64,000 nt of DNA from Aeromicrobium senzhongii (GTDB lineage: Bacteria > Actinomycetota > Actinomycetes > Propionibacteriales > Nocardioidaceae), in NCBI RefSeq assembly GCF_014334735.1, contig NZ_CP060587.1, positions 2,108,001 to 2,172,000 of the forward strand, given 5' to 3'. Position 1 is the stretch's first letter; the number at the start of each line of letters is the position of its first letter. Both the position numbers and the translations under genes were made by a program. The notes beneath the pieces were generated by a model. The model did no database searches. It saw only the letters and a program-made list of their open reading frames with translations, and was not told where the DNA came from. Of this stretch, positions 39,972 through 45,136 are shown one piece after another.

Positions 39972-40238
39972 TCAGGGCAAGGTCTCGGTGCGAATCTCGA
40001 CCTGCACCGAGCGGATCCGGTAGAGCACCTTGTCGCGCAGCGGCGGCGGTGCGGTCTCGGTGCATGAACGCCCCACCAGAGACTTCACGATCTCCTCGAG
40101 GTGGTACTCGGTGAGGCAGTTGGAGCAGTCGTCCAGATGGGTCTGGATCTCGTCGCAGCTGGCGCCGTCGAGCTCGTGGTCGAGGAAGTTGTAGAGATTC
40201 CTCAGAGCCTTCTCGCAGTCGGGTCCGTCGCAGCTCAT
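39972..40238 (-). CDS. rsrA: RsrA-type zinc anti-sigma factor (mycothiol system anti-sigma-R factor)
   Basis: An 88-residue redox-sensing anti-sigma factor that binds the sigma factor while reduced and zinc-loaded and releases it on disulfide stress. Cys8, His34, Cys38 and Cys41 correspond, shifted by 3, to the zinc ligands Cys11, His37, Cys41 and Cys44 of Streptomyces RsrA (HLDDCSNC). A further Cys is near residue 59. The start overlaps the sigma-factor stop by 4 bases, ensuring balanced synthesis. Confidence 0.94.
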
Positions 40239-40849
40239 GAGGCGTCACCTCCCGTCGGAACCTTCATACCTCGCTCGCGGGCGTAATCCGTGAGCAGCTC
40301 ACGCAACTGACGGCGTCCGCGGTGCAGTCGCGACATCACGGTGCCGATCGGCGTGTCCATGATCTCGGCGATCTCCTTGTAGGGGAACCCCTCGACGTCG
40401 GCGAGGTACACCGCGAAGCGGAAGTCCTCGGGCAGCTTCTGCAGGGCGTCCTTGACGTCGGAGTCGGGCAACCGCTCGAGAGCCTCCATCTCGGCCGACT
40501 TCATGCCGGTCGAGCTGTGCGCCGCGGCCGCCGCGATCTGCCAGTCCTCGATCTCGTCGGTGACCTGCTGCGGCTGGCGCTGCTTCTTGCGGTAGTGGTT
40601 GATGTACGTGTTCGTCAGGATCCGGTACAGCCACGCCTTCAGGTTCGTGCCGGGCTTGAACTGGTGGAAGGCGCTGAACGCCTTCGCGTACGCCTCCTGC
40701 ACCAGGTCCTCGGCGTCCTGGGGGTTGCGGGTCATCCGCAACGCGGCGGAGTAGAGCTGGTCGAGGAAGGGAAGGGCGTCGGCCTCGAATCGGGCCTGGC
40801 GCGCCTCCGCGGTCTCGGTCGAGGGGTCCACGACGGTGTCGTCAGTCAT
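40235..40849 (-). CDS. sigR: ECF sigma factor SigR/SigH (thiol-oxidative stress)
   Basis: A 204-residue ECF sigma factor starting [17 protein letters not shown]. Region 2 spans about 25-95 ([40 protein letters not shown]) and region 4 about 135-190 ([40 protein letters not shown]). The start at 40849 (GGGAG upstream) gives the normal length. An in-frame ATG at 40894 with AGGAGG 5 nt upstream would add 15 residues. The promoter upstream is an exact sigma-R site, so the gene is autoregulated. It is coupled to rsrA. Confidence 0.94.
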
Positions 40850-40894
40850 CGTCTCCCAGCCTACTGTGGCCGGTCGTACGGGGCATGCGAGCAT
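40850..40894 (-). other. Alternative N-terminal extension of SigR (upstream start)
   Basis: In-frame ATG 40894 with AGGAGG (40900-40905) adds 15 residues, [15 protein letters not shown]. Streptomyces makes a longer unstable sigma-R' from an upstream start on its autoregulated transcript; this arrangement looks equivalent. Confidence 0.5.
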
Positions 40895-40914
40895 TCGATC
40901 CTCCTGTGAGGTCA

Positions 40915-40941
40915 AACCGTCGTGGCGCCCCGGCTATTCCC
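40915..40941 (-). promoter_or_regulatory. Sigma-R autoregulatory promoter
   Basis: Minus strand GGGAAT (40936-40941), exactly 18 bases, then GTT (40915-40917): the full sigma-R consensus. The -35 overlaps the stop codon of the upstream SRAP gene. Predicted start near 40908, only a few bases before the AGGAGG of the upstream ATG. Confidence 0.8.
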
Positions 40942-41638
40942 CGAGCGGCAGCGGCTCGACGAGCTCGGGACCGTTGTTGCGCACGTTGTTGACCGCGGTC
41001 GAGACCGGCCAGGCGCGCAGTTCGCCCGGCGTGGCGGGCACCAGGTGCTCGAGCGCGTCGGGCCACGGCTCGGCCGCCAGCCAGCGGCTCGCGATCTCGC
41101 CGTCGACGATCAGGGGCGCACGATCGTGGATGCGGCCGTCCTCGCCCTCGGCCGACGTCGTGAGGATCGTGTAGGTCAGCAGCCACTGGCCTTGCGGGTC
41201 CTTCCAGAACTCGTAGAGCCCGGCCAGGCCCAGTCCGCCCTCCGCGCTCATGAAGAAGGGCTGCTTCGGCGGCCGCTTGCCGTCCGCGCCGGCCTCGGGC
41301 TGGTACCACTCGTAGAACCCGTCCGCGGGCACGATGGCCCGACGCTTCGCGAAGGCCTTGCGGAACGACGGCTTGTCCGCGACGGTCTCGCTGCGCGCGT
41401 TGATCAGCTTGTTGCCGATGGAGGGGTCCTTCGCCCAGGACGGCACCAGGCCCCACTTGGCGGTCACCAGCTCACGCCGGAAGCCCTCGTCCTTCGTCCG
41501 GCCCACGACCAACGGCGCCAGCTTGGTCGGGGCGAGGTTGAAGTCCGGTCCGGTGTCGGTGAACAGGTCGCCGACCTCGGCCTCGAAGTCGTCGACCAGG
41601 TTCGCCGGGGTCCGCGAGGTCGCGTAACGGCCGCACAT
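40934..41638 (-). CDS. SRAP-domain DNA-protein crosslink protein (YedK/HMCES family)
   Basis: A 234-residue protein that shields abasic sites in single-stranded DNA by covalent attachment through Cys2. It starts MCGRYATSRTPANLV, so Cys2 is exposed after Met removal; LINARSETV, FYEWYQPE (the catalytic Glu) and the His in GRIHDRAPLIVD complete the active site. The start at 41638 is fixed by Cys2 and by TACGAT 6 nt upstream. The sigR promoter begins inside its stop codon. Confidence 0.93.
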   Translation of the reverse strand: MCGRYATSRTPANLVDDFEAEVGDLFTDTGPDFNLAPTKLAPLVVGRTKDEGFRRELVTAKWGLVPSWAKDPSIGNKLINARSETVADKPSFRKAFAKRRAIVPADGFYEWYQPEAGADGKRPPKQPFFMSAEGGLGLAGLYEFWKDPQGQWLLTYTILTTSAEGEDGRIHDRAPLIVDGEIASRWLAAEPWPDALEHLVPATPGELRAWPVSTAVNNVRNNGPELVEPLPLGE

Positions 41639-42694: not shown

Positions 42695-45136
42695 GTGTCA
42701 GTTGACGCACGCACTGCTCCCATGGGCGATGAGCGCAGCGACGCCGACCTGTTGAGCGCCGTCCGCGCCGGCGATCAGGCGGCGTACGGCGAGCTCTACG
42801 GCCGCCACCAGGTGGCTGCCATGCGACTCGCGCGTCAGCTGATGCGCGGACCCGACGCGGACGACCTCGTCGCCGAGGCGTTCACGAAGGTCCTCGTCAC
42901 GATCCAGAAGGGCGGCGGCCCCGAGGAGTCCTTCCGCGCCTACCTGCTGACCGCCGTGCGGCGTCTGCACGTCGATCGCATCCGTGCCGTCACCCGCGAG
43001 CGTCCGACCGACGACCAGTTCGAACTCGACGGCCGCGTCGACTTCGTCGACACCGCCGAGCTGGGTTTCGAGCGCACGACGACGGCCGAGGCCTTCGCCT
43101 CCCTGCCCGAGCGCTGGCAGATGGTGCTGTGGCACCTCGACGTCGAGGGCCAGAAGCCCGCGGACATCGCGCCGATGCTCGGCATGAGCGCGAACAGCGT
43201 CTCGGCCCTGGCGTACCGCGCCCGCGAGGGCTTGCGTCAGGCGTACCTGCAGAAGCACCTGGTCCCCGCGACCACGCCGGAGTGCCAGTTCGCGATCGGC
43301 AACCTCGGCGCCTTCGTCCGTGGCGGACTGTCGCGCCGCGACTCCGGCAAGGTCCAGCGTCACATCGACGAGTGCCGGGGCTGCATGGGCCTGTACCTGG
43401 AGCTGCAGGACTTCAACCACGGCCTCGCCGGGATCCTGGCCCCCGCGATCCTCGGCACGGCCGCGTCGGGATACCTGCAGGCAACGGGCGGATCGGGTGT
43501 GCTGGCCGGCGCCGCGGGCGCCCTGCGCCAGGGCGGTGGATCCGCCGGTGGCGGTGCCGGTGCCGCCGGCGGCTCGACGTCGGGCGTCATGGGCGTCCTG
43601 GGCACCATCGGTCCTGCGGGGATCGCCGCCGGCGCCGCGGCCAGTGTCGTCCTGATCGCCGGAGCGGCAGCGCTGATCTCGGTCGACTCGCCCCCGGCCC
43701 TCGAGACCACCACCCAGGCCTCGCGGCCCGGGTTGTCCACGCTTCCTGGCGAGGGTCCGTTCGACCCCGCTCCCCCGGTCGTCGGACCCGTCCTGGACCC
43801 CGACGTGTGGCAGGACGCCCCCGACGGCTCCGACGAGTCGCAGGACTCACCACCGGACGACACGCCACCGGACCAGACCATGCCGCAGGAGCCGTTCCCG
43901 GACGTGGAGTTCCCGCTGCCGACGGACGAGCCCACCGCCGGGCACGACGATCCCGCGCCACAGCCCACCGACCCCGCGTCGCAGCCGACCAACGAGCCGA
44001 CGCCGGAACCGACCACGATCCCGACGCCGGACCCGACCACCGAGCCGACCAACGAGCCGAGCACGGAACCGACTGAGGAACCCACGACGGAACCGACTGA
44101 GGAACCCACGACGGAACCGACTGAGGAACCCACCAGCCCGGCGACCTCGGACCCCACCGACGAGCCCACCAGCCCGCCGACGACGGACCCGACCACCGAG
44201 CCCACCAGCCCGCCGACCTCGGAGCCCACACCGGACCCGACCACCGAGCCGACCACGGAGCCGACCACCGAGCCGACGACGGACCCGACGACGGAGCCCA
44301 CCACGTCGCCGACCTCGGACCCGACGCCTGAGCCGACGACCATCCCCACGCCCGAGCCGACCACGGAACCGACGACTCAGCCCACCAGCGAGCCGACGAC
44401 GGAACCCACCACGGAACCGACCACCGAGCCGACGACTCAGCCCACCAGCGAGCCGACGACGGAACCGACCACGGAACCGACGACAGCGCCCACGACGGAA
44501 CCGACCACGCAACCCACCACGGAACCGACCACCGAGCCGACCACGCAGCCCACCACGGAACCGACCACCGAGCCGACGACGGAGCCGACCACGGAACCGA
44601 CGACAGCGCCCACGACGGAACCGACCACCGAGCCGACGACAGCGCCCACGACGGAACCGACCACGCAACCCACCACCGAGCCGACCACGGAACCGACCAC
44701 CGAGCCGACGACGCAACCCACCACCGAGCCGACCACGGAACCGACCACCGAGCCGACGACTGAGCCGACGACGGACCCGACCACCGAGCCGACGCCGAGC
44801 CCTGTCGACTCCTCGGTCTCGGGCCTGGCGCGGGTGGGCTTCTTCTCGGTGAACCTCGACTTCCGCGTCGGACGCGGTGCCGTGGCGGGACAGCGGGTCG
44901 TCGTCCGAGTCGACTTCACCGGCGGACTTCCCGACGTCGAGCTCGTCACCGGGTGGACGAAGGGCTGGGACTGCGAGCGCGCGTCCGCCTTCAGCGCGCA
45001 GATCACCTGCACCCACCAGGTCTCCGCCGACCGCTCGGTCCCCAGCCTGCGACTCGGCACCCTGACGCCGTTCCCCACGGGCACGTTCACGGTCACGAGC
45101 GCCGGGGACAGCATGTGGGGCGCCTTCGGGAGTTGA
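42695..45136 (+). CDS. Single-chain transmembrane ECF sigma factor with zinc finger and extracellular repeat domain
   Basis: An 813-residue fusion. Sigma region 2 spans about 20-105 (GPDADDLVAEAFTKVLVTI) and region 4 about 125-180 (LPERWQMVLWHLDVEGQKPA). A zinc-finger anti-sigma-like motif follows, HIDECRGC (His223, Cys227, Cys230); then a Gly/Ala-rich stretch, one membrane helix (about 305-330, AASVVLIAGAAALISV), a Pro/Thr/Glu repeat of about 270 residues (about 432-703) and a C-terminal beta-rich domain with two Cys. The layout matches ECF groups with C-terminal extensions (ECF53-like), in which sensor, anti-sigma and sigma are one protein. Release from the membrane would presumably need proteolysis. 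GTG 42695 has AGGGGG upstream. The extracellular ligand is unknown. Confidence 0.88.
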   Translation: MSVDARTAPMGDERSDADLLSAVRAGDQAAYGELYGRHQVAAMRLARQLMRGPDADDLVAEAFTKVLVTIQKGGGPEESFRAYLLTAVRRLHVDRIRAVTRERPTDDQFELDGRVDFVDTAELGFERTTTAEAFASLPERWQMVLWHLDVEGQKPADIAPMLGMSANSVSALAYRAREGLRQAYLQKHLVPATTPECQFAIGNLGAFVRGGLSRRDSGKVQRHIDECRGCMGLYLELQDFNHGLAGILAPAILGTAASGYLQATGGSGVLAGAAGALRQGGGSAGGGAGAAGGSTSGVMGVLGTIGPAGIAAGAAASVVLIAGAAALISVDSPPALETTTQASRPGLSTLPGEGPFDPAPPVVGPVLDPDVWQDAPDGSDESQDSPPDDTPPDQTMPQEPFPDVEFPLPTDEPTAGHDDPAPQPTDPASQPTNEPTPEPTTIPTPDPTTEPTNEPSTEPTEEPTTEPTEEPTTEPTEEPTSPATSDPTDEPTSPPTTDPTTEPTSPPTSEPTPDPTTEPTTEPTTEPTTDPTTEPTTSPTSDPTPEPTTIPTPEPTTEPTTQPTSEPTTEPTTEPTTEPTTQPTSEPTTEPTTEPTTAPTTEPTTQPTTEPTTEPTTQPTTEPTTEPTTEPTTEPTTAPTTEPTTEPTTAPTTEPTTQPTTEPTTEPTTEPTTQPTTEPTTEPTTEPTTEPTTDPTTEPTPSPVDSSVSGLARVGFFSVNLDFRVGRGAVAGQRVVVRVDFTGGLPDVELVTGWTKGWDCERASAFSAQITCTHQVSADRSVPSLRLGTLTPFPTGTFTVTSAGDSMWGAFGS
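43988..44805. repeat. Pro-Thr-Glu minisatellite within the ECF sigma gene
   Basis: About 270 codons of PTEPTTEP-type units (also PTDPT, PTAPT, PTQPT, PTSPT) with 12-18 bp DNA periodicity and near-identical blocks, for example in 44340-44480. It encodes a stiff extended spacer that could span the cell wall; glycosylation at Thr is plausible but not shown. Confidence 0.85.

Follow-up and report, generated by a model that had tools for sequence, protein, structure and literature searches.

The sigR locus of Aeromicrobium senzhongii raises the question of whether a single sigma factor gene, read from two in-frame start codons only 15 codons apart, can supply both a basal stress regulator and a form of it that is removed once the stress has passed. 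In actinobacteria, antibiotic producers and mycobacteria included, disulfide stress is handled mainly by the SigR/RsrA (SigH/RshA) switch. Aeromicrobium is a soil-type actinobacterium, and the genome considered here comprises 3.13 Mb on one contig. The window analysed is a stretch of 64,000 nucleotides of this contig (NZ_CP060587.1, positions 2,108,001 to 2,172,000 of the forward strand), and all coordinates below refer to it unless another source is given. From the arrangement of the locus and its comparison with relatives, we consider it probable that promoter choice sets the SigR isoform, with an inner promoter, p1, giving the short form at basal level and an upstream promoter, p2, giving under stress a longer form, SigR', with a likely degradation tag.

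The sigR-rsrA locus

The sigR core open reading frame, taken from the inner ATG (40235..40849, on the minus strand, as are all features of the locus described here), encodes 204 amino acids and scores 350.2 bits against TIGR02947 (cut-off 251.55). The rsrA gene (39972..40238), which overlaps the sigR stop by 4 nt, encodes a zinc-binding anti-sigma factor with a zf-HC2 domain and a score of 90.6 bits against TIGR03988 (cut-off 62.5), and the HxxxCxxC zinc motif of RsrA-type proteins is present as HLDDCSNC. By sequence, the pair qualifies as a SigR/SigH-type ECF sigma factor with its RsrA-type anti-sigma factor.

Immediately upstream of sigR lies a SRAP (YedK/HMCES-type) gene (40934..41638; PF02586, 6e-64). 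Its stop codon falls within the -35 region of p2 (40934-40941, GGGAATAG), and the overlapping GGAATAG is retained in most Aeromicrobium loci. Elsewhere in the window, a long open reading frame on the plus strand (42695-45136) combines an ECF-type sigma factor part at its start, which includes a Cys-containing segment, with several hundred residues of PTTEP-type repeats behind it, an unusual fusion of a sigma factor to a repeat tail.

A sigma-R-type promoter and the putative start of the long form

Upstream of the inner start, the minus strand reads, in order, GGGAAT, 18 nt, GTT, TGACCTCAC, AGGAGG, ATCGA, ATG 40894, 15 codons and ATG 40849. The predicted p2 promoter comprises the sigma-R-type -35 element GGGAAT (40936..40941), which overlaps the TAG stop of the SRAP gene, and the -10 element GTT (40915..40917), placed 18 nt behind it. 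The string matches exactly the Mycobacterium tuberculosis SigH consensus GGAAYR-N17-GTT, which was derived from ChIP and 5'-end data (PMC4803200). By itself it is weak evidence, as the window has one GGGAAT-N16-20-GTT where 0.23 would be expected, and 21/100 shuffles have at least one; its strength comes from the context. A chance origin, which the window scan alone is insufficient to dismiss, is ruled out by conservation in the family and by genome counts: a site with the GGAAY element lies upstream of sigR in 71/71 SigR loci examined from the family, and GGAAT-N18/19-GTT is found at 33 sites genome-wide, compared with one for the reversed-pattern control. The initial annotation had proposed an autoregulated sigR with an exact sigma-R promoter, and the GGGAAT-N18-GTT at 40941-40915 bears out this reading as far as sequence can.

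Sites of the GGAAT-N18/19-GTT type precede clpB, dnaK and the genes for RbpA, a DsbA-like protein and HSP20. Sigma-R-type sites also precede an ErpA/IscA-type gene, a luciferase-like monooxygenase gene, an ArsR-like regulator gene and a sigma-70 gene with region 1.2, and the site of trxB has the GGAAC variant. By these sites, trxB, clpB, dnaK, rbpA and other genes with GGAAY-N18-GTT promoters would form a SigR-type regulon in this genome. An inverted repeat resembling an HspR (HAIR) site, CTTGAGT-N7-ACTCAAC, overlaps the clpB promoter, GGAAT-N18-GTT-N9-ATG (L239 1716-1741, minus strand; C1:2783288-2783313), and this arrangement suggests joint control of clpB by heat and disulfide.

The long form has an AGGAGG Shine-Dalgarno sequence (40900..40905; duplex energy -10.3) 5 nt before its ATG. 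Both the AGGAGG (40905-40900) and the in-frame ATG (40894-40892), 15 codons ahead of the sigR ATG at 40849, had been described before; all are present and the frame between them is open. Nearly all of the relatives examined provide the long form with either a Shine-Dalgarno sequence or a leaderless equivalent. In 58/149 loci the distance from GTT to the upstream start is 7-10 nt (9 nt in 43/58), so that the p2 RNA would be leaderless there. Most Aeromicrobium have a Shine-Dalgarno sequence instead, and its first base lies exactly 9 nt behind GTT in 23/31 such loci. The start codon is also found 9 nt behind GTT at five other predicted sigma-R targets (L009, L010, L013, L252 and clpB, L239), and leaderless mRNAs may be common in the sigma-R-type regulon of this genome. 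Given this GTT-N9 spacing, the first base of AGGAGG, A40905, is the predicted start of the p2 transcript, with an error of about three bases possible (range 40905-40908). This refines the earlier proposal of a start just before AGGAGG, near 40908.

A putative near-leaderless promoter within the extension

The initial annotation missed p1, which would make the two starts separately addressable. The hexamer TAGGCT (40858..40863), which lies within the extension codons GTA GGC TGG and 8 nt before the inner ATG, looks like the -10 element of a housekeeping, near-leaderless promoter. In Actinobacteria, leaderless genes are known to be marked by a TANNNT box beside the start codon (PMC3160421, PMC3898074). 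In an unbiased scan of TANNNT-Ns-ATG spacings across 185 non-redundant sigR loci of the class, TANNNT-N8-ATG was found at 149, other spacings at no more than four loci each, and none in control windows inside the gene; within the family, 70/71 SigR loci have TANNNT 8 nt before the inner ATG. The middle bases of the box vary among relatives (TAGGCT, TACTGT, TAGACT, TATCGT, TACGCT), as those of a -10 box should. Behind the box follows a GGGA-like discriminator with a conserved C at -2 (0.75) and G at -1 (0.86-0.91), which in the window is the 8-nt GGGAGACG (40850..40857). No convincing -35 element was identified for p1. A start of the short form led by a Shine-Dalgarno sequence was also considered and discarded, as GGGAG is too near the inner ATG. 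The predicted p1 sits inside the extension codons, and its RNA could encode the short SigR only.

The N-terminal extension of SigR'

The extension of SigR' (40850..40894) consists of 15 codons, one of them for Cys. An in-frame start that runs open into sigR is found in 151/151 non-redundant two-promoter loci, compared with 63 and 10 in the other frames, although the loci are related and such counts are not independent trials. The two-promoter loci span at least 15 families of the class, and in all 32 Aeromicrobium loci that have a start with a Shine-Dalgarno sequence, the start with the strongest one is in frame with sigR.

Across loci, the extension ranges in length from 13 to 59 codons and its middle is poorly conserved. 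Comparison of the extensions reveals a conserved N-terminal motif, in Aeromicrobium MLACP[EVA]R[PT] (40871..40894), which is a candidate degron. The window extension starts with MLACPVRP; other Aeromicrobium extensions begin with MLACPERP or MLACPVRP, and the clade of the window has V or A in place of the E of the ERP motif. Related N-termini are found in Nocardioides (MIATLERP, SLTLERP), Cellulomonas (MSCSTLERP), Brevibacterium (NATAVLERT) and a further family coded f21 (ATCLERP). The pattern [ED]R[PTS] occurs within extension residues 2-15 in 64/149 loci, compared with 13 and 10 in the other frames and with a mean of 4.4 and a maximum of 11 in residue shuffles, and the Arg of the motif is encoded by all six codons across loci. 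In the promoter-free part of the extension, pN/pS is 0.31 within the window's own clade, a value based on few sites; the 100-codon sigR yardstick for pN/pS was misaligned by indels in two groups and was left unused there. That the extension is coding is well supported by these comparisons, in which its frame and N-terminal motif are conserved together with its start codon and with a ribosome site or leaderless spacing.

The initial annotation had drawn attention to a short extension with one Cys. The Cys is indeed present, and many Aeromicrobium extensions have it, but its importance is not borne out: one entire Aeromicrobium subclade, with extensions starting MLTxx (MLTYA, MLTHA, MLTQT), is devoid of it, which makes a redox role unlikely and leaves the idea of the tail Cys as a redox sensor without support.

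A probable two-isoform switch and its alternatives

Together, these elements are consistent with the following sequence of events. In unstressed cells, the p1 RNA would begin one or no base before ATG 40849 and yield only the short SigR, which would be held by RsrA. Disulfide stress would free SigR, which would then fire p2, and the p2 RNA, starting at or near AGGAGG, would be translated from ATG 40894 into SigR' with 15 extra residues, thereby amplifying the response. The extension would most likely act as a degradation tag, as in Streptomyces SigR', and the amplified pool would be gone after the re-reduction of RsrA. The steps up to the release of SigR and the firing of p2, including the amplification, follow from the anatomy of the locus and the established biology of SigR/RsrA (PMC4921905). 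Both promoters, the open frame, the N-terminal motif, the sigR/rsrA pair and the SigR-type regulon are drawn from sequence and comparison; from these we infer the transcription starts, the production of the isoforms, the instability of SigR' and the involvement of a protease, with the instability being borrowed from Streptomyces.

A two-start logic like that of Streptomyces had been suggested for this locus, and the conserved frame, start, ribosome site or leaderless spacing and motif speak for it. The part of that logic in which an unstable long form shuts the response down does not find the same backing. A sigma-R-type site (GGAAT/C-N16-20-GTT) was not found in the clpP1P2 or clpC-like locus; clpB, dnaK and trxB have one. 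Sigma-R control of clpP1P2 is thus not supported by the search at that locus, and the Streptomyces protease loop, in which genes of the degrading Clp protease are part of the SigR regulon, is not reproduced by sequence.

The main alternative, which we regard as unlikely, is that both starts are real and the extension is no degradation tag, being either a by-product of the position of p2 upstream of p1 or a segment that alters RsrA binding or promoter choice. The variable length and poorly conserved middle of the extension would fit such a role, as would the lack of a sigma-R site at clpP1P2 and the clpC-like gene, and the instability of SigR' is known from published cases only; a 15-residue tail may also be too short for a degron. 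Against this stands the short N-terminal motif, which is kept at the protein level across families and is similar to the N-terminus of SigR' from Streptomyces, whose instability is published. It is very improbable that the upstream ATG is the sole real start, with a gene 15 codons longer than annotated and TAGGCT explained by chance or by the coding of VGW. While no sequence at the inner ATG comes near AGGAGG-N5-ATG as a ribosome site, this reading has to contend with a TANNNT box that lies exactly 8 nt from the ATG in four-fifths of the loci scanned, with almost no other spacing, and stays invariant while its middle bases vary. Hardly credible is the converse reading, in which only the inner ATG is used and the upstream ATG with AGGAGG belongs to a short noncoding leader: conservation is best for the inner start, at the boundary of the sigma factor domain, but the extension frame is open and joined to sigR in every two-promoter locus despite its varying length, and the codons of the motif Arg are synonymous.

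The unusual spacing of the inner start

In 464 kb of stretches of the host genome, TANNNT precedes in-frame start codons at N6 in 44 cases, at N7 in 23 and at N8 in three, one of which is sigR. Of the 67 N6/N7 leaderless candidates, 41 have a C directly before the start codon, whereas in sigR the conserved C lies one base further back and a G directly precedes the ATG; this shift suggests that p1 RNA starts at G40850 and would begin GAUG. The need to keep the extension frame open explains the spacing only partially: N6 would often close it, as the TAG is then read as a stop (29/44 N6 candidates), but N7 keeps it open.

In Streptomyces, a GTC start codon of sigR keeps RsrA in excess (PMC5472188). 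Given the rarity of N8 in the host genome, we hypothesize that this spacing may serve to weaken the basal translation of the short form, analogous to the GTC start. The Streptomyces-type arrangement itself, a GTC start behind AGGAGGTG, is absent from the window sigR, where the inner start is an ATG behind TAGGCT-N8. A GTC-type inner start (one of them GTT) behind a AGGAGGTG-like site is present in 12/34 loci that lack TANNNT-N8-ATG, compared with 5/136 control windows, a count that takes in the Streptomyces-type loci. Starts of this type are not confined to Streptomyces and are also seen in L113 (Thermomonospora), L141, L188, L201, L205, L207 and L214. Tentatively, and with the odds somewhat against it, we extend the idea to many families: the short start would be deliberately weak by either of two unrelated routes, a noncanonical GTC behind a perfect ribosome site or an ATG with N8 whose RNA begins GAUG and is poorly translated, p2 would add a CPxRP or LERP destruction tag, and N8 would be the functional counterpart of GTC in keeping RsrA in excess.

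Comparison with known systems

The two-promoter SigR system with an unstable isoform has been published for Streptomyces (PMC4921905, PMC5472188). For Streptomyces coelicolor, sigRp1, sigRp2 and the unstable SigR' are described by Kim et al. 2009, as cited in PMC4921905, and by Feeney et al. 2017 (PMC5472188), and the half-life of SigR' in Streptomyces is about 10 min, compared with hours for the short form. What appears to be new here is the compact tail of 15 residues and the near-leaderless inner start placed in its frame, both widely conserved; some of this conservation may already have been reported in Kim et al. 2009/2012. If the proposed switch is real, a two-isoform logic known mainly from Streptomyces extends through much of the class, a tail of 13-15 residues suffices for it, and the common N-terminal motif leaves about eight residues in which to look for the degron. 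One and the same stretch of DNA would be both the -10 box of a promoter and coding sequence of the longer protein, and exact transcription starts can be predicted, at 40905 for p2 and 40850 for p1.

As in S. coelicolor, SigR is paired with RsrA and preceded by a sigma-R-dependent promoter, here recognized from sequence alone. The upstream in-frame ATG would likewise be read only from p2 RNA, since p1 lies downstream of it, and a putative housekeeping promoter, here TANNNT-N8-ATG, is placed between the two starts. Loci with the Streptomyces architecture, that is, with GTC (L186, L191, L193) or GTT (L192) behind AGGAGGTG, encode SigR' N-termini (MGSTICPSRSQA, MGSVACPQRPQA, MGSTICPNRPQA and MGSTFCPTAGSR) that resemble MGSxxCPxRP, with which Streptomyces SigR' begins. 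They share a CPxRP-like start with the MLACPVRP of the window, and the short tail is therefore similar to the N-terminus of the unstable isoform known from the literature; the Cys of Streptomyces SigR' also recurs in many Aeromicrobium extensions. In contrast to S. coelicolor, the extension has 15 residues instead of 55-58, the short form starts from an ATG directly behind a TANNNT box and not from GTC behind AGGAGGTG, and a sigma-R site was not found at clpP1P2 or the clpC-like gene.

The sigH and sigE genes of M. tuberculosis and the sigH-rshA genes of Corynebacterium glutamicum provide further parallels, with SigR orthologues, zinc anti-sigma factors and GGAAYR-N17-GTT promoters, and a p1 promoter that gives a leaderless mRNA has been reported for M. 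tuberculosis sigE (PMC4921905, PMC4803200, PMC3489674). Different from the arrangement described here, sigH of the C. glutamicum operon is reported to be preceded by several SigA-type promoters, and rshA to have a SigH-dependent one (PMC4921905, PMC4803200, PMC3489674); the mycobacterial-type loci L195-L197 lack the TANNNT-N8-ATG of the window sigR. As in actinobacterial leaderless genes (PMC3160421, PMC3898074), a -10 box adjoining the start codon would define the translation start of the short form; unlike in those genes, the spacing at sigR is 8 nt, which is rare in the host genome, and the box would be translated as part of the longer protein.
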